Assembly: GCA_903813345.2 (NCBI GenBank)
Contig: CAIIXF020000001.1
Coordinates: 13,351,915-13,415,914 of the forward strand
Direction of reading: 5' to 3'
Length of the DNA stretch: 64,000 nt
DNA from: Owenia fusiformis
Taxonomy: Eukaryota; Annelida; Polychaeta; Sabellida; Oweniidae
Each line of letters begins with the position of its first letter. Within the stretch, counting starts at the first letter, position 1. Below the pieces are notes generated by a model. That model saw nothing but the letters and a program-made list of their open reading frames with translations. It was not told the origin of the DNA and did not search any database. Below are positions 14,213 through 64,000 of this stretch, in pieces. A program made the position numbers and the translations under genes.

Positions 14213-14940
14213 TTAAGCTATGTTCACACCAACGGCGAATGCCACGCTTTAAATCGGCAAGCAAAGCAACCATTGCATCTTTGACTCGAGAACACGATGG
14301 CAGAACAAGATCCAAAAATTCCAGATGGACCACAGCATGACCTATCTGAAGAAGACATGATGTTTGTCGTACGGCGTGAAAGAGCACGAGAGCGTGAGGA
14401 AGCTTGTCAAGCGTAACAAAGCCTAACAAAGCGTTTCAATCCTTGATTAAAGCGTCTCAATTCGTTGGAAAGCTTGAAAGTCCTTCATGAAAGCGTAACA
14501 AAGAGTGTCAGATATTGATGAAAGCGTCTGACATCGTGTCAGATCTCATGCCAGATCGTAGCAAATCTTGAGACATCTTAACGAAGCGTGTCAAGTGGTA
14601 AGCCTAACAGACGGTGAAGAGAATGGGGTCCCCGCTTTGAACCAAGCTCTGTTTAGCTTTCCTACGCTTAAGGTCAAGCTTTGCTGAGCTTTGTTACGGT
14701 TTGTTAAGCTTTGATACGCTCTCGGCGCTTAGGCCTAAATCAATTCGTAACAGCACGGGTAACAGAAGGCCCAAAATTTTTAAACAGTTTAAAAGTTTTT
14801 GGCGCTCTTGCCGAATACCCCGCTTTACTCCGAGCTTCGCTAAGACCTATTACGGCCCTTGATCAAGATTTTTTACGCTTTGGTGCCGCTTTATAAGCCG
14901 CTTTGAAGGGCCATAAAAAGCGCCGTTGGTGTGAACGTAG

Positions 14941-17661: not shown

Positions 17662-17662
17662 C

Positions 17663-17680
17663 TGGTGGCAGCGTCGGGAT
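17663..17680 (+). other. Primer-binding site of the LARD (tRNA-Leu type)
   Basis: TGGTGGCAGCGTCGGGAT, one base after the LTR end. It begins with the obligatory TGG (complement of the tRNA CCA end). It matches the complement of a metazoan tRNA-Leu(AAG) 3' end, as I remember that sequence, with two mismatches. Confidence 0.7.
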
Positions 17681-20365
17681 TTAATTATTACCTAATAATT
17701 AGACCCACTTTATGTTTTTATTAAATATTCTAAAGTAGTGTTGTTTTCAGTTGTTTAATGGTGTCAACTTTTTGTTTGATGCTAATTTAATCTTGTTTTC
17801 CACACTGGTGCGTGTGGATGGCCATTTTGGGATTTTCAGAGACCCAGTCCATGTAGCATTCCACAGGACTGTATCGATTTAGGTTGGTGAAGTAGCCCGT
17901 TGTTCTACTTCCAAGTGTAAAGTGGTACGTATCTTTACCACAGACCCTCTGGTTTGGTATGTAGGTGGGACCTAATATACAAACATATCAAATCTTCCCA
18001 AGCCAAAATTGTAGATCCCAGTTGTAAAACCCTGTCTTATCATGACCCACCAGAACATCTAGAGTGTCATGTCTTGAAAGCACATACATTATGCATTTGT
18101 TGGTGTGGATGTCTCCTGTACCCTGTTCTCGTCCTGTTAGTGAGTTTCTTTCGATGATGGTCATGCTGGGCATGATTATAATCGAGAGATAGCTTGGGTA
18201 GACGTACCCATACAGTGACCCGAATATGCCCCTCCCCTTACATTCCACTTGCCCGAAATGTGTGTGATGGTACGATCCTCTTGTGCTTTCCTGGTTGATG
18301 AGGAAACGTTGTACTATATCTCCCTACAACTGGAGATCTCCATAGCCATATCAGAACGTCTGGTATACTTTTTCTTTTGCCTACTCCAACAAAAGACCCC
18401 AGCAAAACCTGTCCGACTGGTATAGAGCCATTGACTTGGGTAGGGTGGTCCAGGAAGCCCCTGCCCAGTGATCATACTTCTAACCAGTCCCAACATATTT
18501 GTGTGCACCTGTCCCATATCGTATATAGGTGACTAGGAAAGTTGTCTATTGGGAAATAGTCATTATATGACTGATAATGGGAGTAGCGATAATGGAATGT
18601 CCGAAGGATGACCTAATTGGTCTGATCAAGTCCAACTGGCAAACCTATTCAACTTTGTAGAAGTAGGTCACCATGCATACAACCATCTTATGTGTCAATG
18701 GTGGTCCCTTTCATTGAACTGATTTGGGATCTGTTATTTATACGGTCTGATAGATATTTGAGCTACTGCCTCGATCTTGGCAAGTGGTATTGCCAAGATT
18801 AGTTACCAAAATGTTGATAGTGGACTGTCAGTGGAAGTGAGCATGTCTGGACATAGCTTTTGCTGGCGTCAATCAGCTTTTGTTCCAAGGAGGGCTGATT
18901 GTCACAAGTCCCCTATGTGGAGTGTTATCAGTCAACAATCCATGTACCATCTGATGTGGCTGACATTTACCACATATGTATGTGGCATTTACTACGAGAG
19001 TAAATGTCATTTGCTATGTGTGTACATGTATCCTTGGCGACTTATATTTCCTGAGAAGCCGCGGGGTTGTTGTGTTTCTTAAGAGTGGAACCCTAATTAT
19101 AGCTAGATGGTTTGAGTGGCCTGTGCTACCTGTTGTCCCTACTGTCTCTGATTGCCAATATCATGTAAATATTGATTAATATTGACACATTGAATAAAGC
19201 TTCCCTTAGCGTTCCCCCCTTTAGTGATGTTGATACCTCCACACGGGAAGATGGTTCCCATAGATCCGAAGAGTTGCTAAATAAACCCCAAGTTTACATC
19301 TCTGATAATGATGGCGTCAGGATAATGTACAGTCTCTGGTGCCTCATTGATTTATCCTTTCCATTATTGATTACCAACTGAAGTAATGAGAAAAGACTGT
19401 CTACCCAAACTGTTACCTTGTTGCCCTAGTAGATGACCTAGGCTCAACCGTTACACAATTGGAGTAATTGTGAACGTAATGTTTGAGGCAGAGTTCCCTT
19501 GTACATAGTGTATATAATTGTGATGGTGCCGAAAGCTGTCAGTAAAACATTGCACCAACTGTAAAATGTTATCTCCATCCCTCAATGGTCCCTAAATGCC
19601 TAACTCCAGCAATGTCACTTAGCTGTAGCCTATTTTGTCTTGTCCCACAGTCTTAAGGTAGGCGGACATTGAATATGTGTGTGGTTACCATGGTTGACGA
19701 TCCCTGGAGCTAGTATAGATATGAATGTCTATGTAACGTGTCTCCACAAGAGACTTATTCGTTGGCTGGCAATGGGAGGAAGTTGTAGCTATTGTAGATT
19801 GGAACATCCGCATAGCAATGATACGAGAGTGGAGTTTCTCTTCCAGGTTTAGAGATGTCGACCACAAGCCAACAATATAGAGAGACATTAAGAGGACATT
19901 CTGTAACCATACACCAAGGATTATTGGAGAAGCTTACTACATATATTTGATCTTCATACTGTATTTGATGTGCTATATATGAACTTATGACTATCTCTGT
20001 TATACAGAGGCGTTACCAGGGTACGCAGTGTTCTGGATACGACTAGTGCCAACTTAGTATAAAATGACTAAACATTCATTGGAATTCTAAGAAGAAAACA
20101 ATCTTAATGACTATAGCTACAAAATACATGTGCTATTCTGAACTCTTGATATTAATATAAATGTGGTTTCTTCATACGAATATTGTAATGACATGTTTTT
20201 TCAGGTGATGCAAGTCATAAATGTATAACCATGTAAACTACTGTATTATTATGCACCTTTGAGATCATATCTTCACATTGAATTACAAACTTATCATGTA
20301 TATTTTTGATTTATCTTTTAATTATTTTGTAACAATTGTGTAAAAGTTCGGGACGAACTTATTTC

Positions 20366-20379
20366 AAAGAAGGGGGCAG
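20366..20379 (+). other. Polypurine tract of the LARD
   Basis: AAAGAAGGGGGCAG immediately before the TGTAAC start of the 3' LTR, the expected position and composition for plus-strand DNA priming. Confidence 0.75.
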
Positions 20380-23094
20380 TGTAACGACCCATCAGTCTGT
20401 CTTCTCTTTTCAATGGCTTATATCTGGCCTGATGTGCCGTTACTGAGCCTTATTATTGCATTGCTTTAGTCAAAATAACTAACAATTTCACTGTTCACCA
20501 GTATGGAGTTTTACTGTATTATATATGTCCTGTATTTGCATGTATTCTGTGGCCAGCGCCTTCATAGCGCCAATGCTAGTTTTGTTTACAGTTAATGCAG
20601 AGTGCATCTGTACTTTGCTGGCTAAGCCTATAGCGACTGGACATCGCCTTGTAATTGTATGAATTTTGTCTGTTAACTTTAGTAAGAGTCACCATGAGTC
20701 ATAGGCTGTGTAGCCCGTCCACTACTTCAGTTTTTGCAGTTACTCAGCTTAAGGATATAGTTCCATTGTTTATATCGCCTTGTTGTGATTATTTTGACCT
20801 ATGTACGCTATTTAGTGTGTCTAATTTATTGTATACATGTTTATATATATGTACATAACTCTACTGTGCTTCGAATTGTCTTATTTTAAAGTGTAGTTCA
20901 TCTTGTTATGTGAGTAGTGATATGTAATCATGTTGTGTGATCAGTCTCTTGGAAATCTCAAAATGGTGGAACACAGGTTGCTAATTTCTCTTCAATTAAA
21001 TTGGATTTATAGCAGTTTCCGTTCGTTAATCGAGGTGAATGGTGTTCTAAGGTAATTATGAAGTAGTTATTTAATTGGTCAAGAAGTTTCAACGCATTTC
21101 ATTAACTGATTCAGTTGTTATTTAGAGTCAAACTTTTGATGTGATTTCCATGTAACTTTGAGTTTAAATCATGTCTTTTCTTGTTAAAATCTACCTCTTA
21201 TTACGGTAATTATGCTTAATTGTTAGTGTTAATTATACCCAGTATACCGGTAGAACACGTATTGGTACCAGGGTCCCGTTTTGGAGTGAGTTTTGGGGTG
21301 ATTCAAGCCATCCCAATGTACGGTAATGGAAGCTGCAGATGGCTGTCAGGTTGCTAGCCAAATGTAGCTAGGCTCTAGTTGGAGCCATTTGCAGCCATGT
21401 AGGAGTTGCATGGTATTTGGGTATATTTTACACTACATAAGTCAGATCTTATTCGTTATGTAACATAACTTGTATTAATGAATGATTTCCAATTGAAATA
21501 GAATTAATTAATGTTAATCTTTAATTGCTTTTATTATGTTGTTTTATTGTGTTGGTGAGATTAACACTTATACATACACCCCCCCCCCCCGACTAACATT
21601 GACTATTAACATGGACTGCGACATTTAGACTTCCCCTAATCAACGCCCCCTCCCTCAGTCACACTGGCTGTTATGCCGTATGTGACTAGTCACTCACCCC
21701 CCTCACATTCGCACTTTCCCAGATACGAGCTACAAGTGGCTACACAATTGGTGTGTGAATATAGGTGACCAGGCTGACCCCCCCCTGGCTACATTTAGCT
21801 GCAGCCCTATAGTAACTAGTTAGTTGTCCCACACCACCCTTGGTCCGAGGCTACATTGGGCTGCAACCCTATATTGACTATTGAGGTGTCCCATACCACC
21901 CTATACCCGGGGCTACATTAGGCTGCAACCCTATATTGACTAGTGAGGTGTCCAATACCACCCTATACCCGGGGCTACATCAGGCTGCAACCCTATATTA
22001 GCTAGTGGGTTGTCCCATACCACCCTTGGTCCAGGGCTACATTAGGCTGCAACCCTATATTAACTAGTGAGGTGTCCAATACCACCCTATACCCGGGGCT
22101 ACATCAGGCTGCAACCCTATATTAACTAGTGAGGTGTCCAATACCACCCTATACCCGGGGCTACATCAGGCTGCAACCCTATATTAACTTGTGAGGTGTC
22201 CCATACCACCCTATACCTGGGGCTACATTAGGCTGCAACCCTATATTGACTAGTGAGGTGTCCCATACCACCCTATACCCGGGGCTACATTAGGCTGCAA
22301 CCCTATATTGACTAGTGAGGTGTCCCATACCACCCTATACCCGGGGCTACATTAGGCTGCAACCCTATATTGACTAGTGAGGTGTCCCATACCACCCTTT
22401 ACCCGGGGCTACATTAGGCTGCAACCCTATATTGACTAGTGAGGTGTCCCATACCACCCTATACCCGGGGCTACATTAGGCTGCAACCCTATATTGACTA
22501 GTGAGGTGTCCCATACCACCCTATACCCGGGGCTACATTAGGCTGCAACCCTATATTGACTAGTGAGGTGTCCCATACCACCCTATACCCGGGGCTACAT
22601 TAGGCTGCAACCCTATATTGACTAGTGAGGTGTCCCATACCACCCTATACCCGGGGCTACATTAGGCTGCAACCCTATATTGACTAGTGAGGTGTCCCAT
22701 ACCACCCCATACCCGGGGCTACATCAGGCTGCAACCCTATACCAACTAGTAGGGTCCCCATACCACTCTATTCCCTGGGCTACATTGGGCTACACCCCTC
22801 TGGTATCAAGTGAGGTGACCAATACCATTTCTCATCCTTGACTACACATAGTTATAACCCCAATGTATGTAGCAGGATGATCCTATTGACTTATCCTTAC
22901 TGACTACATGTGACTTTACTCTCACATATTAATACGGACTTAATACAGACTTATAAACCCACATGTAATTGTTTTATTATTAAATGATAATGTTGAAATG
23001 ATACTGCTTTGGGAATAAGATAACAGTCTGGGACTGTGTTATGCCAAGGCCATGCTACACTTGTATGGCAGATACATGGCCCAGGATTGTTACA
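20380..23094 (+). repeat. 3' LTR of the LARD (2,715 bp)
   Basis: Copy of 14941-17661 differing only in C-run lengths. The copy of the 62-bp array lies at about 21787-22828. Confidence 0.92.
21787..22828 (+). repeat. 62-bp tandem array inside the 3' LTR
   Basis: Same array, same order of unit variants as in the 5' LTR. The array therefore predates this insertion and was copied by reverse transcription. Confidence 0.9.
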
Positions 23095-23861: not shown

Positions 23862-39169
<15,308 letters not shown>

Positions 39170-40445: not shown

Positions 40446-43400
40446 TTATTGCTTCAGATGAAACTCGTCAACATCTAGTGGTACAAATTCTCCTTCCTTA
40501 AAGAGTCGCTGCCATTCATTACCTTCGGGGTATGTGTAATCAGCTATCGAGGCAGGGCTCAACTCTGTACTGTAGCCAGGAGCCTGAAACAGAAAATGAC
40601 CTTTTTTCATTCGAATAGCATAGGTTGGTGAAAAACAGATTTTAAGAATATTTAGAAAAAAATACCTCTGAATTAAGTGATTACACATTCCCTAGGGGTA
40701 ATATATTTCCTCAACAAGGAAACACATTGATGGAGTATATTCAGGTATTATGTTTCCTCATTGATACACAGATTTGATGACGACATCATCAAGAAATACC
40801 ACAATTGTACACAATGGATTTCAGATTTTCTGTAGCATCTCAGATCATGATTCCAGTATAAAAAGGTGATCATTTACCAATGGAGCAGTGTAGCAGCCAT
40901 TCTTCATGACGACTGGATTAACAAAGTGTTCAAAAAGATGATCAGCGCTCTCAGTCATTCTGAAAAAAATATAACATTAGTTTTTGAACACCTCTCTAAT
41001 CAGAAGATCTCTCAATGTGAATACTTTTCAGTCAAATTTTTATCTATCATAAACTTTTATGTATTGTTGAAAAACCTTGAAATGTGAACACCTGCCAATC
41101 CGAACACTTTTGGCTGGTCTAAATGGTGTTCAGATGAGACAGGTTCTACCGCAAATTCATTTCGTTGATGTAACCTTAGAAATCAAAACTTTATAGTATG
41201 AGTTCAGGAACACTTCTGGTAATACACCCCCAGACTATTTTATATATTTTACTTGTAGGCAGATACTGCTCACCATGTGAAAACAGTTTCAAAGTGTTTC
41301 CCTGGGCCCGATCCTAAGTGGAATATATTCTTACACACGTTCAAATCATTTTTGTTTTCATGGTACATGAGGCAACCAGGATTAATAATTGCAAATCTTT
41401 AATTTTTCTTATTTGTATTAACACAGCATTAATATGCAAAATGTCACCACCTGCCATTTGTTACATACGCCGGATGACAACCAACATCACAAAAAAGTTG
41501 GAGACCATAAGAATATGCCACCACTTTTGGCGGTGACATAAAAATCATAGATTAGTACAAGTTCATGAGCCTGTGGTTGAATGCATTTGTATGGGCGATT
41601 GGTCATACGTATAGGTTGGAGTTTCGATTCTATATGCAAGCTTAAACTCCCTTATACCTCTAGGCTTCCCAAATAGATTTACAGTCTGAAGCAACTTGCA
41701 ATTTTCATACCTACTCTCCAAGGTAGCTGATATACTGATGTAATCAAATATGGACAGATGTTGTACCATCTCACAGAGACCCACCCCTCCTGCATGAGGA
41801 CACACTGGCACTGAAAGAAGCACACCAGGTGTATGTATTCCATAATAATATTGACTAGACTACTGTCTTTGGTACGTAAGAAGTGGGAATTTAGGAGTAC
41901 ATGCTGTTACTTTGAAGCAAGGTCTTAAAGTTACAATACAAGAGCTCTCCTAATTCATGAAAGTTTCTGTATATTGAAATTGACTTATTTGGTTTTAAAG
42001 AGGTTACATACACAGGTCAGTTTGATACTAAAACATGTTTGTTTGATGTTGAAAAGTGAGAGGAAATACTTTAGAAAAGTGGTCCTTTAGGAAGAGGTTA
42101 ATTAAATTAAAATTTAATTATTTAATTAAAAAGTCAAAAAATGTGGATTTTACCATTAAATTTTTTGGCCATTAAAAGAACAGCAATAATCTCATTAACC
42201 CCTCCCAGTCTGCAACTGTCTATTTGGCAGAATTGTAGGCCCTTGGCTTGTAGAAACTGTTTAAACATGACTCTGTTCTGGCAACATTCTCCTGTGGCCA
42301 CTCCACACCCATAGGGCTCCAAGGCCTACAAATGTAGACCCCAAATGTCAGTAAACACATTGTATATTACAGTTCAAAACTCCTCATCACCTGTCAAACA
42401 AATGAATTACACTGTACACTTTTTAATTAAAAATCATAATGAAATAAGTTTGGAATGAATTAAAATTATGTAAACCTCCAAAATAATTTCTTGTTGAAAG
42501 CTCACATTTGAAAACACAGGACTAAATTCTATGCTAAGGGCCTGCTTCTGAAAGCTTTACCTTTGCAATAGCTGCATGCCCAAGGACATCATCTGGACTA
42601 GTAGGTTCTTCTATCCACAGGAGGTTGTACTTCACCAGATGACCCATCCATTCAATTGCCTCATCCACTCCCCATTTTTGGTTTGCATCTACCATCTATG
42701 AAAAGAAAGACATATTAAGTACCAGTCTGAGTTATGAACCAATCACCTCTTTTTTACTCAAATTCTTCCTTGGCTAGTGCAGCTGAATCTATGAAAAAAC
42801 TCCATTCTAAAATTATTTGTAATTTTGTAGGATGACTGACAGATATGTTTGCCATTGGAGTGTAGTTCATAATATAACGAAAAAAGCTGATGATGTATAA
42901 AAAAATGATGTATAAATGTTGAATATGATATGCAACTTGAACTTACAATAGTGGTATCAGGTCCTAGCTCTTTCCTGACAATCTCAAGTCTTCTAATATC
43001 ATCCTGCAGATCTGAGCCGACCTTGAACTTGAACCTTGAAAAGCCATTAGCTTTAGCTGTGGCTAGTCTCTGTAAAATAATAATAAAAACAAGGTATTAA
43101 AATGCAAAATGTCACCACCTGCCATTTGTTACAGACACCGAATGCTGGACAGCAAACAGAGATTGCCAACCGCCATCACAAAAAAAGTTGGAGAACATAG
43201 CAATATGTCACCACTTTGGTGTTGACATAATAAAAATGCAAATAAAATCAAATGCAAATAAAATCAAAAATGATACATAAAGAGATAAAATGTTTTATAC
43301 TACACCTGTTTTATCTCATCATTTGAGTAGCCCAGCCAGCCAGCTGATGTGGTGTATGCTGGGTAACCATTTGTCCGAATTTCCTTCTCTGTAAGATATG

Positions 43401-46400
43401 AAATAGCATTTGACATAAAATGTCCAAGTCTCTGATGTTAAAATGAAGAGAAATGAAACGGGGGTGTCTTATGAACAATGCCTGGCAAAATATGATAGAA
43501 CTGTGAATGTAGTTATTTGTTATTTTACTCAACAGTATGTAGTGTAGACTTATGTACTATACTACCCTGTACTATTGTTTACCTCTTTCTGCTTTGCCAG
43601 CCTGGTTGTTCCTTAAAATCTCCAGGGCTTCTTCCTTTGAAAGGGCATCCTCTCTGCAAACATTGGATATAATAAATATCTCATTGATGGAGATGGAATA
43701 TCAATGCAATTAACATGTTTATTACAGGGTGGGATGGAAAGATTTGTCAGCTATGGGGATAAAGCTATTTTCATAAGAATACTAAAGAAACCTCTTACAA
43801 TGTAATTTAGTACATATAACCTGTCTAAAGTGAACATTTCTAGGATCATCTCAAAGTGTTCCTATTGAGAGATGTGAACACCAAGAGGATCTGATAACAT
43901 CATTAGTCCACTACTTTGTAGAAGCAAAAAGAGTGTTTGTATTTACAGGTGTTCACTTTTGAGTGGTGGTCCCACATTGACACACCTAGGATATAATGTT
44001 GCAGTAAATGTATCTAAGACTTACATATATCTGAAGTCTATCAAAGAGATGATTTTTTCAGGTTCCATATCAACCAGCAACTTCCATACTGGCTACAAAA
44101 ACAAAGTACATATATGCTGAAACTGATCAAGTTGAACCTCTCATCTCAAGTGAGGGTAATCAAAGGGAGACTTACTTAGCTAAGAGTCTTCTGCTTTGGA
44201 GGACAAATGGGCGAATACGGTATTTAGTGACATTTGTAGTCTTTATCATTTTACAAGACCTCATCTAGCCTCACTATGTAGCCTCATGAAATGCTATTCC
44301 TTCTTGCAATATAACCCTAATTTGCATGTTGCATCAAGTAATTCGGAGCTTGATCCAGAACATCATGTACAAAACGCTATGGTGTGTAGTTATGTTTGAA
44401 TGTATCAGGGCAGTGATCTCCCCAGCATTAAAGCGCAGCACCCACCTGACATTTTAAAAACAGGCTTGAACCCACCTGAGATTTCATTTGCACCCACTTT
44501 AAAATGAGAAAAATAGGCATATTTTGACCAATTTTGGACTTAATTGTGAAAATGAGAATTTTTTACCCACTTGAAAAAATATTCTGGGGAGAACACTGCA
44601 GTGCACATAGAACACAAGACTACTTCAATGAGTGGTTCCTTTCATGAATACATGCATAAAAGTATGACCATGTAATATGTGGGATATGTGCCTATGCATA
44701 ATATCATGATCTCATAATACTGATTTCTTTACCTTTCCTTCTATCTTGGCCCAGAGGTCCCAGAGTGCATTCACAATAGCTGCAGTTGCAAGATGCATTA
44801 CTCCCTTCTCTGGTCCCAACTAAAATATAAATGATATAACATTAATGACCTCCACAGAGGTTGACTGTTAAAATTGTATCCTTGTAATGCAGTGGTGCAG
44901 TCTGAATTCATAGTGGATGGAATAAAGTAGACTACTTTTTTTGATTTATATTATATATCACATCATTTTAGGCAAACCCACAATACTATTAACTGGCAAT
45001 GCATTATATGGCCATTTAGTCAAAACTATTAATCACTCTTCGACCAATCAAAATGAAGTATCTAGATTGTAGTTGAAGCAAAAAGAAATATTCTTATGAC
45101 TATTTTTGTGGTGCCATGGTAATAATACATACTAAATATAACCATGAAACAAGAATCATATCATTTTAAGCCATTCCACCAAGCTAAGCAGTTTATCATG
45201 TATTTACCCATCTTAGCTGTTGTTCATTGGTTATCTCTCTCCAAAAGCCAGCAAAATCATCATAAATAGCGGAAAGTTTCCAATCAAGTAGGATTCTGGT
45301 GAGGGGCTTGATAGCAGCACATACTGAAAAAAGAGACTATTGTTTGCAAGTTCTGAACTTCTAACTGATTAAGTACTTGAATAGTACAATCATGTAATAT
45401 ATGTATGTACAATTCATAATGGCATATTAATGAAACATTTACTATTTTAATCTGCAGGATATGACAAAATGTAATTCTGGTAAAAAAAATAATAATTGCA
45501 GCTTGCAATAGATATCAGGGCTCTCCCCAGGCTTTTAGACTGTGGCGCAGCACCACACTTTATTTAGCACCCACCACAACCTACTGGCAAATCATGATTG
45601 TTTCAACAGTCTAAACTTGGCTGAATATACAATAAAAGCATACTGAACGGTAATGTTGATGATGGTTTGCACCCTAAATATTTCCTGATGAGAGCCCTGG
45701 ATATAATACCAAATTATATAAGGCAGGCAGGGACAAGCTAAAATCTAGCATGATTGAATGTCTTAAAGTAATTAGAAGCGAAGAGAGTGTAGACTTTTGG
45801 AATTAGAAGCAATCTTCAAAAATAAAGTCAATGTTTACTTTACAATTCTTATTTCATTTTCTAAAAAAAGATTTGAGATATCCGATGAAATGTAGAAGTT
45901 TTTGAAGATTTCAGATGCAGAAAAGTTCAAATTCATTAAAATTGAAAAGGGAGACATCCTTTTTTCCAATTTTCCAGATAACCTTTAAAAATCAAAAGAT
46001 TACCTGGTACTATATATAGCCAAAATGCTCGACCTGAACAGAAAATAGCCATTTCACGGAATGAGAACAAAACTATTCAGTAAAACTTATCTGCAGCATT
46101 CACTTAAACAGGTTTACTTGTGCCAGAAAACTACTTTTTAAAGTGGAGATATACCTATATGAGTGCCACGGCCAAGGGTAAAGGTCAAACCATGACCTTG
46201 AAGTCCAGTATCTGTGCTAATTATTACATAACCACAGGAATAATCAGGATCTCCATGCTAGAAACAAATAGCAATAACTAGGTGACTCATAAAAGATGAA
46301 AATGAACTTTAAATTAGACATTACAACAAGGTTCCTGTTTTCTTGATGGTTATTATTAGATAATGATGCCTTGAACAGTAATTCACATGAATAATCTTAA

Positions 46401-49400
46401 ATAATGTAATTGTAAATTATACACATATACTATAGACATGCAATTCATAGTTTGATAAATGAAGCATTAATTCGGTAAATAACTGAGCTAAGCAATTCAA
46501 AGCATCACTAGTATGGCAAAGAAAATCAACACAATACTTCAAGACCATGGGTATTTGAAGCAAACATATACTTTTGGAGGAAATATTTTGTTATTATTAT
46601 AAGAATAACAAGTATAAAATTAACTGGCAATCACAGCTAGGTGAGCAGTACAGTAGGGTACAGTATGGTACAGTACAGATAGAATAGTACACAACAGTAC
46701 AGTACAATGGACAATGCAGACACTCTATTTGTGGGTATAGCATGTTACTTTAAGATGATCTCTTAACATAAGACATAAGCATGGCACATAAGGGTTCTAC
46801 ATGTGGCTATTAGGTTAGCAAAATTATCAAAGCATATGATATGTGAGGTTCTAGCTATAGAGTTGGAAAAATTACTCAAGTAAGTATAATGGCTTATAAG
46901 GCTAATGGTTGGCAGAATTCTTCAAGCATGTGTTCTATTTAGTATATGGCACAAGGAAAGGATTATTGACATCCTGAGTGAAATAACAATAACATGGAAG
47001 ACCAACATAGAGACCTCCCATAAACCCTAATCCCCTCCCTCCCATCAGCCAAACCTTCTCTGGCAGAGTTACCTTCTCTACAACAATTCAAATATTTGGA
47101 GTAGATTATTCTACTAAAGGCTAGCTACAAGCTCCTGTGACCCCCCCCCCCCCTTCTACTTGATTACACACCTTTACATGCTTATTGGGATGAGTAGTGG
47201 TTTGGGATCACAAGGGTTTGTAGCTAGACTAATTCCATCAGAGAGATTTGGCTACTGCCCCATGTGATAAGTTTGAATGTGTTCAGAGTCAGGTAATCTT
47301 AAGCTTGTGACTTGGTGAGGTAATACAATGCCAGTAAATGTTACACTTGCTCTCTAACCAATTTCCGTTCCTCTGCCAGCAGTAAATGTCTGCCCACACC
47401 CATAGATGTCACTATCTGTTTGTAGAATTACATGAGCCATGGAATGATCAGGTACACTCTAAAACAGTAGTAGTATGAGTAGATGTATTAGCATGATTTC
47501 CACTACTTGATTTAAAGAATAATACATTGAGTTACTAAATTCCCCAAAAAATTTGCTCTCTTTGATTATTGCAACTTCAATGAAGTCCCTTACATATGTG
47601 TATAAACACACCAGCATTAGAGTTTTGTCAAAGTATAACTGGGCTAGCTAAGCTCAAATCTGACCATTCTCCAGTTTACCAGTGTACAACTGTGGCTATT
47701 TACTTATGTAGTAGCAATGACACTGAATGACCATGTCAATCTCAATGACATGAACATATCATTGTCAATTTCATAGACAGAAATAGAATTGGCTAAATTC
47801 AACCCTAAATTGACAAGGAGGATTGGCTCCCAGGATCGAAACTCGATATTTTCCAACAATGAAAACGTCGAAATGTCGTTATTTTCTGAAATTAAAACCG
47901 ACTATAAATCAGGGGTACAATTACTCCCGGGAAATCCTTCGACCACCATGTTGCCCACATGACACAACCCTCAAGTTTGATGCCCGATCATTTTTTCAAT
48001 TTTTTATTTTTGCGCAAAATTCGTTTTGCACCTTCATTCCAAGATACCCGGGTTTAGCGCGCGCGTACTATAACGTCACTATAGCAACGTTTTGACCTTG
48101 AACTAATAGGATAGAAACGCGCTGCAGTGTCTGAACGGGTCACGACAATGCAGCCTTTTTGCACGTTTCATGGACAATCTTCGGTATTATTAAGGTAAGT
48201 TTAAAACGAGGAATGCCACTGGAATCCTGAGATTCACAGCTTTGACGTGGTATGAAAAAGGATCCATAAATATTGCGATTTCTTACTGATTGAGACTCTC
48301 AAACTTTGATGAATAAAAACAGGTGCTTTTCCTGAGACCCAGCGTCTTCTTAATTTTCAGTACTTTGCTAGAAGGTTAGAAATTTTTTCTTTGGTACTCA
48401 TTTGGAGCACATAACAGGTGTACATTTGAGCAACTTTGAAAATTATTCATCAAATTTTGACGGAATTATCAACCAAAGTGTTGGTGGATTTTGGTGTCAT
48501 TTGCAGTTCAAATTGTTAGTTTTCAGCGTCTCTAGATAAGGGATTTTGAGGAAAAGTTGTGAAAAGCTTATTTCTGAGGGTTCATGAATACAGGTCAATG
48601 TGTGTGTAATATCTAAGCATAACTCCTGGTAGATTTTCTCATCCATCGCCATTTGTACCCCCCGAGACTTCAAATGTGGGTCCCTAGTCCAGTTCGAATT
48701 GTTCGATTTCCTTATATGGTGTTTAGACACCATATGAACGATTATTTCCGAAGGTTCATATATTCAGCTTAATGTGTGTTAAATAGCTAAGCATAACTCC
48801 TGATAGATTTTCTCATCCATGGCCATTTGTACCCCCGAGACCTCAAATGTGGGTCCCAAGTCCAATTCGGATAGTTCGATTTCATTATATGGTGTTTATA
48901 CACCATATGAAAGATTATTTCTGAAGGTTCATATATTCAGCTTAATGTGTGTGTAATATCTAAGCATAACTCCTGGTAGATTTTCTCATCCATGGCCATT
49001 TGTACCCCCCGAGACCTCAAATGTGGGTCCCTAGTCCAATTCGGATAGTTCGATTTTATTATATGGTGTTTATACACCATATGAAAGATTATTTCTGAAG
49101 GTTCAATCATATATTCAGCTTAATGTGTGTTAAATAGCTAAGCATAACTCCTGGTAGATTTTCTGATCCATCGCCAGTTTTACCCCTGAGACCTCAAATG
49201 TGAGTCCCTAGTCACCATATGAAAGATTATTTCTGAAGGTTCATATATTCATCTTAATGTGTGTTAAATAGCTAAGCATAACTCCTGGTATATTTTCTGA
49301 TCCATCGCCAGTTTTACCCCTGAGACCTCAAATGTGGGTCCCTAATCCATGTAATCTGGTTTGGATTGTTCGATTTCCTTAAATGGTGTTCAGACACCAC

Positions 49401-52400
49401 TTGAAAAGTTTATTTCTGAAGGTTCATATAATCAGCTTAGGATGTGTGTATTAGCTAAGCATAACTCCTAGTATATTTTCTCACCTATCGCCATTTGTAC
49501 CCCCGAGATCTCAAATGTGGGTCCCCGACTCCCCAGTCTGGTTTGGATTGTTCGATTTCCTTATATGGTGTTCAGAGTTCAGACATGCACCACTTGAAAA
49601 GTTTATTTCTGAAGGTTCATGTATTCAGCTTAATGTGTATGTAATAGCTAAGATAAACTCCAAGTAGATTTTCTCATCCATCAACATTTGTACCCCCAAG
49701 TCCTAAAATGTGGGTCTGTAGTCCGGTTCGGATTATTTGATTTCCTTATATGGCGTTTAAATACCACATGAAAAGATATAATACAATATATGACAATACA
49801 TGTATTACATTGTATTATATGATCTCAAGCTCATTTTATTTACCAGTTCACTAGTTTTATTTTGTATTTTATTGGGTCTAAATTGATGGGTGCAACATTC
49901 ATTCAAATTACACATATAAAAGCTTTTTATACCTTCTAAATGATCAATATTATTCATTATCAATAATGTACACTTATTTTCTTCCAGCTACCGAGTGAGA
50001 ATGGACATGACTAGCAACCATGCCTCTTTACCTGTTGACTCCATCTTTGAATGTTATGCCAATGATTGAGATCTGCCATGTTGCAGAAAAATGTGATTTT
50101 CGAGGTATGTACACAATGTTAGATAAATCGAATGTACAGAGTGTCAAATAAATATGATAGATAGTTTTACTGTGCTAAGGAACAATTCAGATATCATGCA
50201 GACAAAAAAGTTACCCAACATTATGTGGATCATAAAGTTAAGGGGGAGAACATATTTATTTGATACCCTGTACAGGGTGTCCCGAAAGTATGGGGGCCCC
50301 CTAGGCGGACACATACCAATGTCTTCATAGTATGTGTCATATATCATTTTAAAGCTTATCCAAACTTACATTAATTTGCCAAGTATCATGGTTCAACTCA
50401 CAAAAGGTAAATAGTTACAGGCATTTCAAAACTAAGTGTTTAGCTAAACATATAGTTCATTTCAGTATCCTGGTAACAGCCCTGACCTGAACATGACCGA
50501 AAATATGAGAGCTATTGTCGACAAAAGGATGGATATTGAGTTCTAAAAAGAGGAAGTTGGGGGTAGATACTCCAGGGAAACTCTTCTAGAATGCTTTAAA
50601 AAAGTTTTATGAGGATAAAAAAATGCCAAATCCCTATTTGAAGCACGTTTAAGGTCATATATGGAAAGCATTGCTGCCATTAACATGGCTTAGGGACTCC
50701 GGGAGACACACCGACTATTATTTTGGTGTAAAACTGACTTTAATTTTTTTTTAACTTTTTCCCATTTTGAGTTCAACCGTGATACTTGGCAGATCGGTGT
50801 AATTTTGGATGATCTTTCAAATGATATATGGCACACTATGGAGACATTGAAAAATGTCTGCCTAGGGGGGCCCCCATACTTTCTGGACACCCTGTATATT
50901 AAATGCCCATATAAAGTTCCAGTCACTTTGGCTTAGAGCTTAGGCTTTATTATGCGTGTAGTACTCCAATAGTAGACCAATGTTTTCAAAATGCGGTATG
51001 TGAGGCCTTTCAATTTAATTTCAAGAAGACTTACTAAATACATGTACTAAATCCTGCTCTTGTGTATGTTTCATGAGATTTTATCCAAATTTTGGACAGA
51101 TTTTGTTTTTTTTACTGTGACACCTGAATACTGCCACAACATCATTATTAAATATTATTTGTATACATTTACTAGTAGAATATGCAATTTCTTATATCAA
51201 ATTCAATTTATTTCAGTAATGCTGACATCTGCGTGCGTATTCTATACATCTGTGTGAGTGGGAATGTATGAGACTGACTCCTGAGGGAAATGCCACTGTT
51301 GTAGAGCTGCATCTCAGTCTTCTACTGACTACTATGCGGTAATTTCAAGCTTATATTTTATTTGACAACATGGCATCTCTTGGACTCCAAAGCTGTTTGA
51401 AGCTATGAAACTTGATAATATTGTATAATTTAAAAATAATATCATGAACACTCCTTGTAATCATCGGTAGAATTTTGGTCAATAATGATGTTTTACTTAC
51501 CAAACTTAACTGAGATTTTAAATGGCAAACAATGCAATAATATGCTCCAGAAGAGGAAATAATGGAAATGTATTCAATATATTACGGGTTATGGAAAAAT
51601 TTCAATTGATTTTCTTTGCAAATATCAATGTCTCTAACAATCTATTTAATAACAAACTGCAATGCATAAAAATAGATTCTATGATTATTTTAAAGCTATA
51701 CAATGATAACAAACAACCCCGATACTTTTTCTTGGTATATAAAAACCTAAAAATGTTGATTAAGCAATATAATATTATGAAACAAGTTCAACACATCTAG
51801 AAATTATCATAGAGTCACCAATAGCCATTCATATTTTAGGAATCATTTTGTTGGAAATTCTATTATCTTCCTAATGATATATAATTTATGGATTTATGGA
51901 ACACATCAGCAGATATTACAAAATCAAAATCAAAAATGTGGACTTTTTTGGTCTACCCTGTACATGTGTGAGATGTGTACTATATTTACGAGTGTGCCAT
52001 AACTATTTTAAATCCTGTAACTTCAATTTTGTACCTGTAATGTGTACTAGGCCTGAGGAATGAACCAAGTCAGCTGCTAATGCTGACACACCATCCTTAA
52101 TAAATGTTCTTATTTAGAATATATAATTTCTAATATTAAATTGAATAAATTTCCCAGCAAATTATTTAAAGCTATAAAATATGTAATAAAATACTGATGA
52201 TTACAAGGAACTTCATGTTTTGATTTTTTAACCATAAATATAAAGGGGCTACCACTAAAAATCACTAAAAACAATAATTTCTAGATTATATTTAATAAAT
52301 TTAATGAAAAATCTTGGTCTGTTTTACTTGGTCTTCCAATATTTTCTAAGACTTTCTTTTACCCTACATGTGTTAAATAATCCTCATTTGCTTTCAGATA

Positions 52401-55400
52401 ACAACACATTATGCTCCATTATCCCTCATCGCTCAGGTATCAGGGAACTGGGGAATGAATAGATGACAGGAATCTCCCGAAAATCAAGAAGAAACATATT
52501 CACAGTATCTTCCTAAATACACCTTGGAAAAAAAAAAATCATCTACTAGTGTAGTATATGTAACACTTGGACTTAGAACAATATGATTTAAAATAAACAT
52601 CAAAGTGACAAAGAAGAGACGTAGAACTGAAAAAAGAGCTCTAATACAGAGTGAGCTAAAAAAGGTAACCAAAACAAATCTCAATAACTCAGTCACCTTG
52701 CATGGGTTTAGTGTCATATTTTGCACAACAAGCCTTGTCCAATGTATTAGTATACCAAGTTTTCAGTGGTTATCCCATCGAACAAAGTTCGGAGGGATAT
52801 AGGGAGCGCCTCCGTCTGTCCGTCCGTCCGTACGTACATACGTCCGTCCGTCCGGGCAATAACTCAAATACCGTTGGCCCGATTTTGTTCATATTTTGTA
52901 CACATATACCCTATGGGAGTAGAATGTCTGCTTGAAAGCCGATTTTCAAAATGGCGGCCATTTTAGTGACGAATTTACAGTAATTTAGGTGCAATATGTA
53001 AAATTTTTAAAAATGGCCACCATTTAAACGTATTTTACTATAACTCAAAAAGTAGTGGAGCCATTTTGTTCATATTTGGTATGTGAATACTATAAGCATG
53101 ACACACTGTCCTATGACACTTTTGGTAGATGGTGGCCATTTTGAAAAATGGCCACCATTTTAACGTATTTTACTATTACTCGAAAAGTAGTAAAGCGATT
53201 TTGTTCATATTTGGTATGTGAATACTATAAGCATGGCACACTGTTAAATGACACTTTTGGTAGAAGGTGGCCATTTTTCAAAATGGCCGCCATTTTAACG
53301 TATTTTACTATAACTCGAAAAGTAGTGGAGCGATTTTGTTCATATTTGGTATGTGAATACTATAAGCATGACACACTGTCCTATGACACTTTTGGTAGAA
53401 GGCGGTCATTTTTCAAAATGGCCGCCATTTTAACATATTTTACTATAACTCGAAAAGCAGTGGAGCGATTTTGTTTATATTTGGTATGTGAATACTATAT
53501 CAAACATTCTGAAAGAATACGTTGGACAGTTGATTATTACATTATAAAGACACTCTTGAAAGAACCAATGTCCTATAAAACATAAACAGTATTCATCCAT
53601 TTAAAATGGAAGCTTTTTATTTAATTGTGTGATGTTACCAAATGTAAATATGTTTGTAAAACCACTCTGTTTAAATACAGGTAAATAAATAATTAAATTA
53701 AATATAAGCACGGCACACTGTCTAATGGCACTTTTGGTAGAAGGTGGCCATTTTGAAAAATGGCCACCATTTTAAAGTATTACTATAACTTGAAAAGTAG
53801 TGGAGTGATTTTGTTCATATTTGGTATGTGAATACTATAAGTATGGCACATGGTCTAATGACACTTTTGGTAGAAGGCGGCCATTTTGAAAAATGGCTGC
53901 CATTTTTGCTATATACTTTGTTTGTAAAAATGCCATCCATGGGTGTTCGATGGTATTCGCTACGCTTTGGCGTTGCCGTTGTTCTGGTTGTATCTCTAGT
54001 GGTCATGATTTTATGGCCATAAAATATGGGCGTCAAGTCTGGAGGCCAACTTGAACGTATTGGGCGTAGTCTTGTTCACAACACAAGCATAAACATTTTG
54101 TGTTATGGCTCTCATCTTCCTTCTTATCTCTTGTTTCAATGTTTCAAGGGTTGTTAGTGTAGAAAAAATAGACCCAAAGATAAAAAGCTGGTGGGATTTA
54201 TGTCCAGTCAGTCATTTCGGCATTTGGACCATGTTTTGTAGATGACCATAAAATCGTGACTCTAAGGGACAGACCAATGACATTGATTAAGGTTTAGTTG
54301 TGCCAAATATGATTTTGAACCCATGCTGAATGACTGAGTTATTTACATACATTTGTTTGGGTTACCTTTTTTTGGCTCACTCTGTATGTAATAATCTTAG
54401 TTTTCCTTGAATAAAGTGTGAGATACATATGCAACCCAAATATATTCTAGAATTGAAACAATATAAGTAAAGATTGTTTGTTGCTTGATCTGATTCTACC
54501 TTTACCTATGTGAGGAATAATCAAAATAAAGAAAAATAAAGAAGTGGAACTTTAACCTTAAAAACTTGTAAAATGATTGTTTTTACACTTACATCATTAT
54601 AACAGAGATATAGTGACAATGACAACTGACAAGATAGTAAAATCAGCTTGTAAAATCAGATGATAATCAAAACCAAAGTGCTGCCAAGACTTACACTCCC
54701 CTTCAAAAGTTTGGCTTTAATTTGAACAACTGCTTGGGCTGGAAATCTAAACTGATATAATTTCCTAGTATAACTTCATTTTTTCTCATTTTATATACAA
54801 AAGATTGCAAATTGATGGCAAATTAAATTCATTTTTAAAAATTGTCATCCAGATGTAAACCAAAAATGTTTTAACAAACTTTATTTTTTTAAAAAAATTG
54901 ATATAATTTTTCAGGTTTTATAAAGTTATATGTCTCCAAAGTCAAAACTATGCTTTTTCAAGAAACATATCCCTTAAGATAACATATGAGGTATGAGAAT
55001 ATCCACAAATTGAACTGAAGACTTAGCTAGTAAACAATGGCACCCTTATTTAAAGTGTTCGCATTGCTTATTTAAAGTGTTCATTGCATGTTATGTTAAA
55101 AATCAACCAGAGTAATCTAATAGGGAAGTTTGCAAAACTTGGAGTGGAGTGTAGATGGATATACGATAACGTGAGAATAAAGGGCGGATCAGTTAAATAT
55201 AGAAAAAATCAGCATATACTTCCAGAATAGTAATAAGTTACATCCTTTGATATTTCACTTTTCATTCAAAAGACTGGAGAGACCAATGGATCCATCTAGT
55301 TCATACTCCTTGTTTATCCCCGGTAAAAACGTCATATACACACTAGACGAAAACGCATCCAATGGACAACCCTATTGTGAAAAACGAACCTGACGGCAAA

Positions 55401-56465
55401 CGAAAAGTCTGTCCGATAATGTACGCAATTGATATTTTTCGTCGTGTACCTTGAATATTATGATGAATTTCATTCATGTTATCGCGATTGTGATTGTTTA
55501 CAATGTATTACAGTATGTTTTGGCCGATTCAACCTAAAGAAGGTACTTCTAATTCTCCGTCAAAGACCAATACAAAATGCCGGAAAATCGAAAAATAATT
55601 TTGTTATTGGCTGGATGAAGAAAACTAGGAGACGAATACTATTATTATTTAGCGAAAAAATAAGCTTATGATGTGGGCTTTCTGAATCAAAAAAGATTGA
55701 AATTATTTTTTCATGTTAAAGGGGTCTAATTTATCGTTAAAGTAAGTGTTGTCAATGTAAACAAACATGTCGGCGAATTTGATTTCTCGTCTTTAAACAA
55801 TGATATTTGTGTAATAGTTGAATACTATATTACGAATGTTAATGATTTAGAAACCCAATTTCAATAGCTCCATGCTCGTATATAACATTCTATATATCTC
55901 CCAATAATAATGAAATAAGAAGTAATTTTCTCAAGGGTAGTACAATTTTTTTCGAAAATCCAATGGATCAATCTTGATACGCGCGAGGTTATCACGCCAC
56001 ATCTTGGTGGGCACTATCGTGGGCGAAAGCTCATTGTCCAAATCGCTCTAGTTTGCGACGTTAAACACAGAAGAAAACTCACCCCTGCTATAAATTCAAA
56101 ATAAACAGTTCAAAAGATTCGAACCAATATCTCGATCATTTCTTGTGAGTTTTGGAATTTTTCGTTTGGAAATAAGACCAAAATTCACGATTTAAATGTT
56201 GAAGTGAACAAAATGGCGGCTGTTTGAATTCGAATTTTGTATTACGACATACCCATATATGGGACAGAATATCGGTGGTGCACTCTGGGAGCCAATCCTC
56301 CTTGCTAAATTGAAGAACAATGCATTCTCCGATTTTGATGACAGTTTCTCCAAAATGTAAAATGATACCTTATCTTACCATTGCATCCGATCCATGTTTT
56401 CCCAGTGACGTGGGGAAGCGAATATCTTTGATGTCTACACCAGTAATTTTGGTCGGTTTTGCCAT
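40446..56465 (-). CDS. ENOSF1: ENOSF1, enolase-superfamily L-fuconate dehydratase (13 exons plus alternative exon 2)
   Basis: Predicted to dehydrate L-fuconate to 2-keto-3-deoxy-L-fuconate with Mg2+, by family assignment. Minus-strand coding exons: 56465-56379, 46257-46155 (2a) or 47458-47359 (2b), 45323-45208, 44819-44733, 44092-44025, 43653-43583, 43388-43306, 43079-42957, 42695-42561, 42325-42154, 41810-41711, 40959-40878, 40583-40446. With 2a this gives 454 residues (human 443). The catalytic set is complete: K219-F-K221 (KxK), metal ligands D249, E275 and E304, and the D327/H354 dyad ([16 protein letters not shown]). The C-terminus PGYSTEL..YPEGNEW is diagnostic of ENOSF1. Start at 56465 gives [20 protein letters not shown], aligning with the family N-terminus. 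Intron 1 is about 9-10 kb and full of repeats. In vertebrates the neighbour is TYMS; none was seen here. Confidence 0.96.
41426..41546 (-). repeat. GTCACCACC-MITE copy in ENOSF1 intron 11
   Basis: On the plus strand it begins GCATTAATATGCAAAATGTC and ends GGCGGTGACATAAAAATC, opposite in genomic orientation to the WASHC5 copies but again sense to its host gene. Confidence 0.7.
43092..43230 (-). repeat. GTCACCACC-MITE copy in ENOSF1 intron 7
   Basis: Begins AATGCAAAATGTCACCACCT, contains CATTTGTTACAGACACC and AAAGTTGGAGAACATAG, and ends GTGTTGACATAA. Sense to ENOSF1. It lies between exon 8 (start 43079) and exon 7 (end 43306). Confidence 0.7.
44411..44598. repeat. hAT-like MITE, CAGTG..CACTG ends
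   Basis: Ends CAGTGATCTCCCCAG and CTGGGGAGAACACTG are inverted. It contains repeated CACCCACCTGA words. Same family type as 45516-45699. Lies in an ENOSF1 intron. Confidence 0.6.
45516..45699. repeat. hAT-like MITE, CAGGGCTCTC..GAGAGCCCTG ends
   Basis: Inverted ends CAGGGCTCTCCCCAGG and CCTGATGAGAGCCCTG. GATAT stands directly outside both ends. It shares GCGCAGCACC and GCACCCACC words with 44411-44598. Confidence 0.6.
46155..46257 (-). CDS. ENOSF1: ENOSF1 exon 2a (ancestral-type variant)
   Basis: 103 bp, phase 0 to 1. The acceptor TTTGTTTCTAG and donor G/GTATAT are good. It encodes [16 protein letters not shown] then [18 protein letters not shown], very close to the human and bacterial fuconate dehydratase sequence at this place (..DPDYSAAYV...TFT.G.G). 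It carries the second half of the 20s loop and the 50s loop of the capping domain. Confidence 0.9.
46620..46705. repeat. GTACA-type microsatellite
   Basis: Irregular run of ACAGTA / GGTACAGTA words in the intron between ENOSF1 exons 2a and 2b. Confidence 0.5.
47359..47458 (-). CDS. ENOSF1: ENOSF1 exon 2b (alternative, mutually exclusive variant)
   Basis: 100 bp, phase 0 to 1, with acceptor CTACTGTTTTAG and donor G/GTTAGA. It encodes [15 protein letters not shown] then [18 protein letters not shown]. About half the residues match exon 2a with one codon deleted, and the frame is intact. Conserved P-D, V-I, T-D, T-F-T and G-R-G-T positions show it is a diverged duplicate under coding constraint. 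The tyrosine of PDYS and the leucine before GRG are changed (H and A). Splicing in both exons, or neither, breaks the frame. Confidence 0.85.
47814..47833. repeat. 20-bp repeat CAAGGAGGATTGGCTCCCAG (left copy)
   Basis: Perfect inverse of 56285-56304, 8.5 kb away. It contains an inverted CCAAT box (GATTGGCT) and sits about 300 bp upstream of the candidate small plus-strand gene. Weaker similarity continues a few bases outward (AATT). Confidence 0.7.
48148..50069 (+). CDS. Candidate small spliced gene inside ENOSF1 intron 1 (42 codons)
   Basis: An ATG at 48148 opens [15 protein letters not shown] and reaches a strong donor (AAG/GTAAGT, 48194). It joins in frame to an exon starting at 49988 after TTTTCTTCCAG. 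This continues [12 protein letters not shown]...ECYAND and stops at 50069. The second exon ends at 50104 (CGAG/GTATGT). Further exon-like pieces follow at 51217-51338 and 52398-52436, so this could instead be a multi-exon non-coding RNA antisense to ENOSF1. The upstream 150 bp is unusually CpG-rich, with GTCACTATAGCAAC resembling an RFX X-box. The protein is not recognised. The spliced frame may be chance; confidence is low. Confidence 0.3.
48540..49770. repeat. Seven-copy tandem array, about 173-190-bp unit
   Basis: Each unit has CTAAGCATAACTCCTGGTAG, ACCTCAAATGTGGGTCCCTA and, in several, the palindrome TATGGTGTTTATACACCATA. The AAGCATAACTCC block recurs near 48616, 48789, 48962, 49138, 49275 and 49458, and as a decayed form near 49650. 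It lies in ENOSF1 intron 1 and in the first intron of the candidate plus-strand transcript. Confidence 0.85.
50273..50894. pseudogene. Tc1/mariner-type transposon relic with decayed transposase
   Basis: TA target bases flank inverted ends CAGGGTGTCCCGAAAGTATG (left) and CATACTTTCTGGACACCCTG (right). Pairing extends through the GGGGGCCCCC block. The interior at about 50468-50690 reads [20 protein letters not shown], then continues with stops. This is the conserved C-terminal catalytic block of Tc1/mariner DDE transposases ([11 protein letters not shown]). It is internally deleted and broken. Confidence 0.8.
52647..54384. mobile_element. TA-flanked DNA element containing a nested repeat element
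   Basis: Inverted ends CAGAGTGAGCTAAAAAAGGT and ACCTTTTTTTGGCTCACTCTG (the latter one base longer), with TA on both outer sides. The match continues inward through a CAAATCTCAATAACTCAGTCA-like block and its inverse. The 1.74 kb holds a reversed ATCCCATCGAAC element (52772-53956) and no transposase. Mariner-type by ends and target. Confidence 0.7.
52772..53956 (-). mobile_element. ATCCCATCGAAC element, reversed copy with 135-bp array
   Basis: Same family as 1327-3988 but inverted. Low end ATCCCATCGAAC (52772-52783), high end GTTCGATGGTAT (53945-53956, one mismatch). Array units follow one another with about 135-bp period and are interrupted at about 53500-53700 by a roughly 200-bp insert ending in an AAAT-rich tail. 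The plus strand stays open over three units, repeating [14 protein letters not shown]. Confidence 0.65.
54694..55151. repeat. MITE with CACTCC..GGAGTG ends
   Basis: Left end CACTCCCCTTCAAAAGTTTG and right end CAAAACTTGGAGTGGAGTG are inverted, with TA on both outer sides. 458 bp, no coding frame. Mariner-type by target. Confidence 0.6.
56285..56304. repeat. 20-bp repeat CTGGGAGCCAATCCTCCTTG (right copy)
   Basis: Perfect inverse of 47814-47833. It contains a forward CCAAT box and lies 75 bp inside ENOSF1 intron 1. Confidence 0.7.
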
Positions 56466-62879: not shown

Positions 62880-64000
62880 TATTTATTTATTTTTTATTTA
62901 TTTATTTATTCAGAACTACGCTTTTGTATCAGCGGCACACTTTCAAAGGTGCGTCTTTACAATAAAACATAATATATCTAAAACTGAGTCTAAAGAATCT
63001 TTAAGGTTGCACTAAAACTTTAATGGTTAAAATAGGTTTCCTATCCGACTCAAATACTAAATAACTAATACATCTTAAGTAAAAACATTTTAGATACTGT
63101 GTCAAATGTTGAACCTAAATCTTGTCCCCCAAGTCTAAAAGCCTCATCACCTAGAATCCATTGAAGTTTATATTCAGGTGAAGACGCGAAGAATGTTTCA
63201 CTCAGGGCAGATGGAATTTTGCTTTCAATTGTTTTGAAGAACACATTACGATGGTCATTATAGTGGGGACAGAGTAGAAGTCTATGTTCTACCGTTTCAA
63301 TCATATTTGTACAAAAATTGCAATTGGGGTCCGAAAGTTTATTTTTCCATCTACATGTTTCACTTTTTAATTGGAACTTTCCTAATCTCACAAGGAACTT
63401 TATCCTTGCGCCCTGAAAGTCATAGTCATTTCTAAAGTAGTTTTGAAGTCCTTTTCTGGTGGAAAGTGTACTATAAAAGGATAAGGATGATTTTTGATCA
63501 ATTTCATTCTTAGTATAAGATTTACATTCTTCCCTTATCCTGTTATCGTATTCATTAATCATTTCATCAGAATCATGACTTATGCCATCGAAACCGATGG
63601 AGGACAGAATGTCATCCATTTGTTCAATGTATTTCCAGCTATTGGTTTTATTATTTTTAAGTCTATGTGACAAAGCTGCAATGAGGTTGCTTATAAGAGA
63701 ATTCTCACTTTTGCCTAAAAGATGAAAAAAGTATTCAACTTGTCGTTTCAGCACAATAAAATGTATAGGAGTCCATCCTAGCTCGTTTATAGCGCCAATA
63801 TATGCCGGAGTGCTTTTGATATTGAAAATTGCTCGCGCTGCGTTATATTGCATCGACTGAAGTTTATTTCTGATCACTTTTGTATCTGTAACCCATACAC
63901 CACACCCATGTAAGATGCTTGGTAGAAATTTACTTGTATATAACGTGTTCCCAAAATCAATCCTCTTAGCATTGAGATGTTTACTAAGGGTATATGAACT
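62880..64000 (-). mobile_element. 3' part of a LINE (non-LTR retrotransposon), running off the right edge
   Basis: Minus-strand element. ORF2 C-terminus comes first, then about 170 bp of 3' UTR, ending in an AAAT-type microsatellite tail at about 62880-62910. It sits in the region upstream of the unidentified gene's exons, probably in one of its introns. The tail form is typical of LINE clades that end in short tandem repeats rather than plain poly(A). Confidence 0.75.
63065..64000 (-). CDS. LINE ORF2 C-terminal region, open at the window edge
   Basis: The frame is open from the window edge to a stop at 63065 (311 residues visible). It starts inside the region after the reverse-transcriptase fingers/palm: FLPSILHGCGVWVTD, then QSMQYNAARAIFN, the usual post-RT helical segment of LINE polyproteins. 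A C-terminal zinc-knuckle-like set follows (C-R-W-K..., CNFC...ETVEHRLLLCPHY), as in the zf-RVT family. No internal stop in the visible part, so the copy may be recent and possibly intact. Catalytic motifs lie outside the window. An in-frame methionine at 63877 is internal, not the real start. Confidence 0.8.
   Translation of the reverse strand, partial: SSYTLSKHLNAKRIDFGNTLYTSKFLPSILHGCGVWVTDTKVIRNKLQSMQYNAARAIFNIKSTPAYIGAINELGWTPIHFIVLKRQVEYFFHLLGKSENSLISNLIAALSHRLKNNKTNSWKYIEQMDDILSSIGFDGISHDSDEMINEYDNRIREECKSYTKNEIDQKSSLSFYSTLSTRKGLQNYFRNDYDFQGARIKFLVRLGKFQLKSETCRWKNKLSDPNCNFCTNMIETVEHRLLLCPHYNDHRNVFFKTIESKIPSALSETFFASSPEYKLQWILGDEAFRLGGQDLGSTFDTVSKMFLLKMY

Follow-up and report, generated by a model that had tools for sequence, protein, structure and literature searches.

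The genome of the annelid Owenia fusiformis contains, in a 64,000-nucleotide (nt) stretch of contig CAIIXF020000001.1 (positions 13,351,915 to 13,415,914 of the forward strand; hereafter the window, with positions counted from its first letter), a gene of the ENOSF1/L-fuconate dehydratase (FucD) family in which coding exon 2 is present in two diverged versions, 2a and 2b. Here we report an analysis of this exon pair, which we consider probably to be an old in-place tandem duplication within the ENOSF1 gene, with one version used per mRNA; isoform B, the product containing 2b, would then have a changed lid on the same barrel as isoform A, the product containing 2a. Judged from the sequence, the pair is real and old and is probably used, and there is good support for a barrel that can be given either of two lids. 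That these lids would also serve two substrates is an inference.

The minus-strand interval 56465-40446 holds a complete ENOSF1/L-fuconate dehydratase gene with 13 coding exons and GT-AG introns (Table 1). Exon 1 joined to 2a and exons 3-13 encodes a complete protein of 454 amino acids (aa), and with 2b in the place of 2a the product has 453 aa and the same stop. Isoform A matches human ENOSF1 chain 4a35 (E 3.4e-191) and the bacterial L-fuconate dehydratase 1yey (E 1.4e-149), both over nearly the full length, and by this homology the gene is assigned to ENOSF1/FucD, in the mandelate racemase subgroup of the enolase superfamily. Both isoforms score above the Pfam cut-offs for MR_MLE_N (22 bits) and MR_MLE_C (29.4 bits), isoform A with 28.4 and 203 bits and isoform B with 26.6 and 202.7 bits. 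Residues K219, K221, D249, E275, E304, D327 and H354 (isoform A numbering, as for all residues below) are invariant with 1yey and 4ip4 and all sit in exons common to both isoforms; we take them to be the catalytic set (KxK, three metal-binding acids, Asp and His). An earlier interpretation of the window, made from its letters without database searches and here called the sequence-only reading, had placed the swapped exon in the N-terminal capping domain, and this is supported, since MR_MLE_N passes with 2a as well as with 2b, and both isoforms have the barrel and its catalytic residues in common.

No NCBIfam model reached its curated cut-off with either isoform, the top one being L-talarate/galactarate dehydratase at 129.7 of 500 bits. 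The D-mannonate and D-galactonate dehydratase models of the same collection scored isoform B 3-4 bits above isoform A, a difference too small to build on. Isoform A has Tyr35 and the family features, by which it would be classed as an L-fuconate dehydratase. Isoform B has His at this invariant Tyr place and is therefore classed as a product of the gene, not as an L-fuconate dehydratase.

The exon pair itself is as first described: both versions are open, run from phase 0 to phase 1, measure 103 nt (2a) and 100 nt (2b) and are flanked by AG and GT at the positions given in Table 1. The estimate that about half of the encoded residues are identical was also right (17 of 33 residues, 60 of 99 nt). 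An mRNA with both versions, or with neither, runs into an early stop, and the claim that only one exon can be used per mRNA thus stands for productive messages; that splicing itself is exclusive does not follow from the frame alone. The intron between the two versions is probably too long for exclusion by lack of space, so exclusivity would rest on regulation together with frame. Docking/selector RNA pairing was looked for in six region pairs, and the duplex was never below all 25 shuffles, in a test that was a poor one because whole introns were allowed to pair.

Splice sites were scored with a matrix, by which the donors of 2a and 2b rank below all the others among the 13 of the gene, an outcome expected by chance once in 78, with scores exceeding 84.7% (2a) and 84.3% (2b) of 759 intronic GT decoys. 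The acceptors exceed 96.0% (2a) and 87.9% (2b) of 701 AG decoys, the acceptor of 2b being tied second weakest of 13. The good splice sites of the sequence-only reading are therefore borne out only in part. Weak donors are what one would expect of alternative exons under regulation.

An exon-2 profile was built from 80 bacterial orthologues and the human sequence. The orthologues are the best 80 of 585 relatives; two search patterns were used, one of which includes GSDAM, so that the 80 lean towards close relatives, and two alignments took in 11 of them. Over the 2178 stop-free segments of the window this profile gave 62.9 bits to 2a, 45.5 bits to 2b and 4.7 bits to the next best segment; the scores used in the comparisons below are 63.5 bits for 2a and 45.6 bits for 2b. 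A chance match as the origin of 2b was rejected, since only 2a and 2b fit the profile. No third copy of exon 2 was seen, either by the profile scan of these segments or by tblastn, and no relatives were found in viral contigs. Joined to exons 1 and 3, 2b scores 92.4 bits against human 4a35, and the version with 2a scores 105.6 bits.

The duplication is old. Among the 17 codons for residues identical in 2a and 2b, 8 are the same, compared with 6.4 +/- 1.9 expected for random synonymous sites; the synonymous sites are thus near random, which points to great age. Outside the stretch that both have in common, the intron flanks of 2a and 2b are no more alike than chance would make them. Exon-2 identities of 21/34 between isoform A and human and 18/33 between isoform B and human, set beside the 17/33 between the isoforms, place the copies about equally distant from each other and from human. 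Both copies have accordingly remained open over a long time.

Constraint on 2b was assessed from conserved columns and by simulation. Nine exon-2 columns are invariant in all 80 orthologues; 2a retains all nine and 2b retains eight. Neutral simulation from 2a at the observed divergence (39/99 nt) left 1919 of 5000 descendants stop-free, the best of which reached 26.5 bits against 45.6 for 2b, so that none of the 5000 equalled 2b, and none had eight invariant columns. A wholly neutral history of 2b is rejected on this evidence.

The residues that 2b keeps and those that it changes define the putative second lid. Kept are P33, D34, S36, V40, T44, G50, G52, F55, T56, G58, R59 and G60. Tyr35 becomes His, at a place that is Tyr in 80/80 orthologues and His in none, and Tyr39 also becomes His, where 79/80 orthologues have Tyr, one has Val and none has His. 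Further changes are L53 to Q, L57 to A, H51 to C (also Cys in human) and G47 to D (Asp in 2/80), and 2b is one residue shorter at or near D32, where gap placement is ambiguous. The two signatures that 2b was said to change are altered only in part: DPDYS has become VPDHS with one residue lost nearby, and TLGRG, now TAGRG, differs at one of its five positions. Within limits of loops and strands that are our own estimate, identity between 2a and 2b is 3/7 in the 20s-loop part, 4/10 in the following strand and 3/8 in the turn and next strand. The first half of the 20s loop is presumably encoded by exon 1.

The place of Tyr35 was followed further with the pattern DAMxxxPD[Y/H]S, which fixes the neighbouring residues and so covers relatives that have those neighbours. 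Across 1183 genomes of three phyla it gave 91 matches, 89 with Tyr and 2 with His. A bacterial paralogue with His was considered and rejected, as both places with His, together with an odd one among those with Tyr, were unrelated to either isoform (tblastn, E <= 1e-3). After these three were dropped, 88/88 matches have Tyr; one of them (L083) was confirmed by tblastn, and three lie in G002, G003 and G005, the genomes of orthologues L002, L033 and L079. With Tyr in all orthologues and all retained matches, the change in 2b at this place is specific. Human ENOSF1 Tyr34, the equivalent of Tyr35 here, is listed in UniProt as substrate-binding. The UniProt paper (PMC4384041) goes no further than stating that substrate sites were transferred from the Xanthomonas complex. 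Archaeal relatives with a typical enolase fold are described in a review (PMC9795676, section 10) as having an N-terminal domain that mainly sets substrate specificity.

Taken together, we propose that splicing would pick either 2a or 2b, both of which have weak donors, and that wrong products with both exons or neither would be removed by frameshift and decay. Isoform A would be an ordinary L-fuconate dehydratase. Isoform B would have the same metal site and catalytic barrel beneath a lid in which Tyr35 and Tyr39 are both replaced by His, Leu53 by Gln and Leu57 by Ala, and in which the 20s loop has one residue fewer. These differences would alter either the fit of the acid sugar or the tightness with which the lid shuts. 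A bolder version, possible but rather doubtful, holds that splicing selects the active-site lid, so that a single gene would yield two sugar-acid dehydratases acting on different substrates, and that the 2b lid, with its His, shorter 20s loop and 50s-loop Ala, would serve an acid sugar other than L-fuconate; the pair may even predate the split from the vertebrate line, one exon having been lost there. The mechanism of the sequence-only reading is plausible, but it claims more than the evidence bears about the choice of substrate and about the 50s loop.

Several results weigh against the proposed reading. In the presumed 50s-loop stretch, 2b hardly differs from 2a (7/9 identical). The proposal that the exon swaps both the 20s and the 50s loops is consequently weak for the 50s loop, and it is the 20s-loop half that changes most; with the 50s-loop stretch the best conserved, the lid differs chiefly in that half and in the strands. 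The shorter loop is not unique to 2b, being shared by one of the 80 orthologues (L075). A tree of 30 sequences (the isoforms, human and every third of the 80 loci) over 41 columns excludes no topology, with values in the approximately unbiased test (p-AU) of 0.13 for 2a with 2b, 0.205 for 2a with human and 0.916 for 2b with human. The ratio of nonsynonymous to synonymous divergence (dN/dS) between 2a and 2b is 0.52 by NG86 (0.476/0.915) or 0.77 by LWL85 (0.556/0.724), moderately below 1, which indicates modest constraint, and weakened selection on 2b is possible. At 45.6 bits, 2b lies below all 81 profile members (57.1-95.2; held-out 2a 63.5), a gap that is partly built in because the members' scores come from the model they built. 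The loss of the invariant Tyr would also fit relaxed selection. When half of the divergence was simulated as neutral, 9/5000 descendants matched the 2b score and 267/5000 kept eight columns, and with a quarter neutral these numbers rose to 1176/5000 and 1857/5000, so that a recent loss of function of 2b is possible.

The alternative that survives best, which we nevertheless regard as unlikely, accepts exclusive use of the exons and holds that isoform B is catalytically weak or inactive, with a regulatory role, a dominant effect in mixed oligomers or a non-enzymatic role. The alteration of one invariant and one almost invariant Tyr, together with a profile score under those of the 81 family members used, would fit such a product; the eight retained columns, with the 50s-loop FT and GRG among them, and a barrel wholly common to both isoforms speak for an active one. 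Less probable again is that 2b is a pseudoexon, a decaying or never-used duplicate in intron 1. The modest dN/dS, weak donor, lower profile score and lost invariant residue are in its favour, and a quarter-neutral history fits easily, but neutral decay over the full divergence is rejected (0/5000) and over half of it nearly so (by score), and 2b has kept its frame, its phase and a splice site on either side despite near-random synonymous sites.

The remaining two alternatives we consider very improbable. An assembly error could have brought 2b from a paralogous ENOSF1 locus or another haplotype, and the minisatellite at 48563-49716, about 1.1 kb upstream of 2b, is a place where assemblies can fail, but the window contains no N, and when human ENOSF1 was compared by tblastn with intron 1 and with the 7.5 kb upstream of exon 1, no further convincing ENOSF1 exon emerged. 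Use of 2b from an alternative upstream promoter, or an N-terminally shortened protein starting at its internal Met, as in some vertebrate ENOSF1 forms, has for it an in-frame ATG at the seventh codon of 2b, and against it the AG acceptor of 2b in the same phase as that of 2a and the fit of exon 1 + 2b + exon 3 to the family. The old, exclusively used tandem pair remains the reading we prefer.

Table 1. Coding exons of the ENOSF1/L-fuconate dehydratase gene and the intron separating the two versions of exon 2, in window positions
Feature	Positions	Strand	Remarks
coding exon 1	56379..56465	-	start codon at 56465, encodes 29 residues, ends phase 0
exon 2b (alternative)	47359..47458	-	100 nt, phase 0 to 1, 33 residues
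intron between 2b and 2a	46258..47358	-	1101 nt
exon 2a (family-like)	46155..46257	-	103 nt, phase 0 to 1, 34 residues
coding exon 3	45208..45323	-	acceptor common to 2a and 2b
coding exon 4	44733..44819	-	
coding exon 5	44025..44092	-	
coding exon 6	43583..43653	-	
coding exon 7	43306..43388	-	
coding exon 8	42947..43069	-	KxK motif (K219, K221 of isoform A)
coding exon 9	42561..42695	-	DANQ...EEPTSPDD (D249, E275)
coding exon 10	42154..42325	-	ATGE...QIDSCR (E304, D327)
coding exon 11	41711..41810	-	H354
coding exon 12	40878..40959	-	
coding exon 13	40446..40583	-	includes stop codon

The window holds several repeats besides. The minisatellite already mentioned lies in intron 1 and has units of about 134-193 bp. 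Tandem arrays at 3161-3581 (146-bp units) and 53003-53499 (135-bp units) appear by eye to be the same sequence in opposite orientation, with a 145-aa open frame overlapping the second. At 24489-24983 a 99-bp tandem repeat is present in 5 copies with 98% matches, and its unit, being a multiple of 3, yields a repetitive 168-aa open frame. A pair of direct repeats (14939-17661 and 20378-23094), about 2.72 kb each and 99.7% identical, start 5.4 kb apart and both contain the same 62-bp minisatellite array; the interval 17395-21786 has no stop-free stretch of 150 aa. This pair could have arisen by partial tandem duplication, or it could be the long terminal repeats that belong to a non-coding element. 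Open frames at 4465-5118 and 10730-11368 (minus strand), 5.6 kb apart, score above the cut-off for the GNAT acetyltransferase model Acetyltransf_18 and are perhaps exons of tandem paralogues. A frame of 270 aa at 63065-63877 (minus strand) has no Pfam match at E 0.001 and bears a possible resemblance to the end of a non-LTR (long terminal repeat) retrotransposon protein. Rfam and tRNA scans of the window found nothing.

In the enolase superfamily, a model case for such evolution, new substrates are gained by one catalytic barrel through changes to the domain that caps it. If the proposed reading is true, the same principle works inside one gene and one organism, where two lids could be compared on an identical barrel, and the little-studied animal L-fuconate dehydratase would gain a second, testable activity. 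The principle as such is not new, as exon-swapped enzyme pockets are known from COQ-2 and ACSL. For the enolase superfamily, no report of mutually exclusive exons came up in searches of an open-licence library, mostly by title and start of abstract. One candidate, a review of SF3B1 in cancer (PMC7469106) in which both "enolase superfamily" and "mutually exclusive exon" occur, was set aside, since the latter term stands there in a list of splicing types.

In coq-2, exons 6a and 6e form a mutually exclusive homologous pair that remodels the enzyme core and decides the substrate, and the second exon is reported only in animals that make rhodoquinone (PMC7434440). The system differs from the present one in its enzyme, a polyprenyl transferase, in the equal length of its exons (134 nt each) and in that splicing and product switch are experimentally shown (PMC7434440). 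ACSL6 and ACSL1 offer a comparable case in the fatty-acid Gate exons, a mutually exclusive pair whose gate motif differs by one aromatic residue, Phe or Tyr, near the substrate entry; unlike here, the enzyme is an acyl-CoA synthetase, the transcripts are known, and variants without both exons are reported (PMC1543647). The tandem-duplicated exon substitutions of human genes (PMC9741552) are events of a like class, involving homologous tandem exons that are old and in phase, and the name ENOSF1 has 0 occurrences in the main text of that paper. Nearest of all are the known ENOSF1/L-fuconate dehydratases (human 4A35; Xanthomonas FucD 1YEY and 2HXT; 4IP4), which are alike in full-length homology, in the barrel catalytic residues and, with 2a, in the nine invariant exon-2 columns. 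Compared with these members, the Owenia gene has a second exon 2, and its isoform B has His at the invariant Tyr35.

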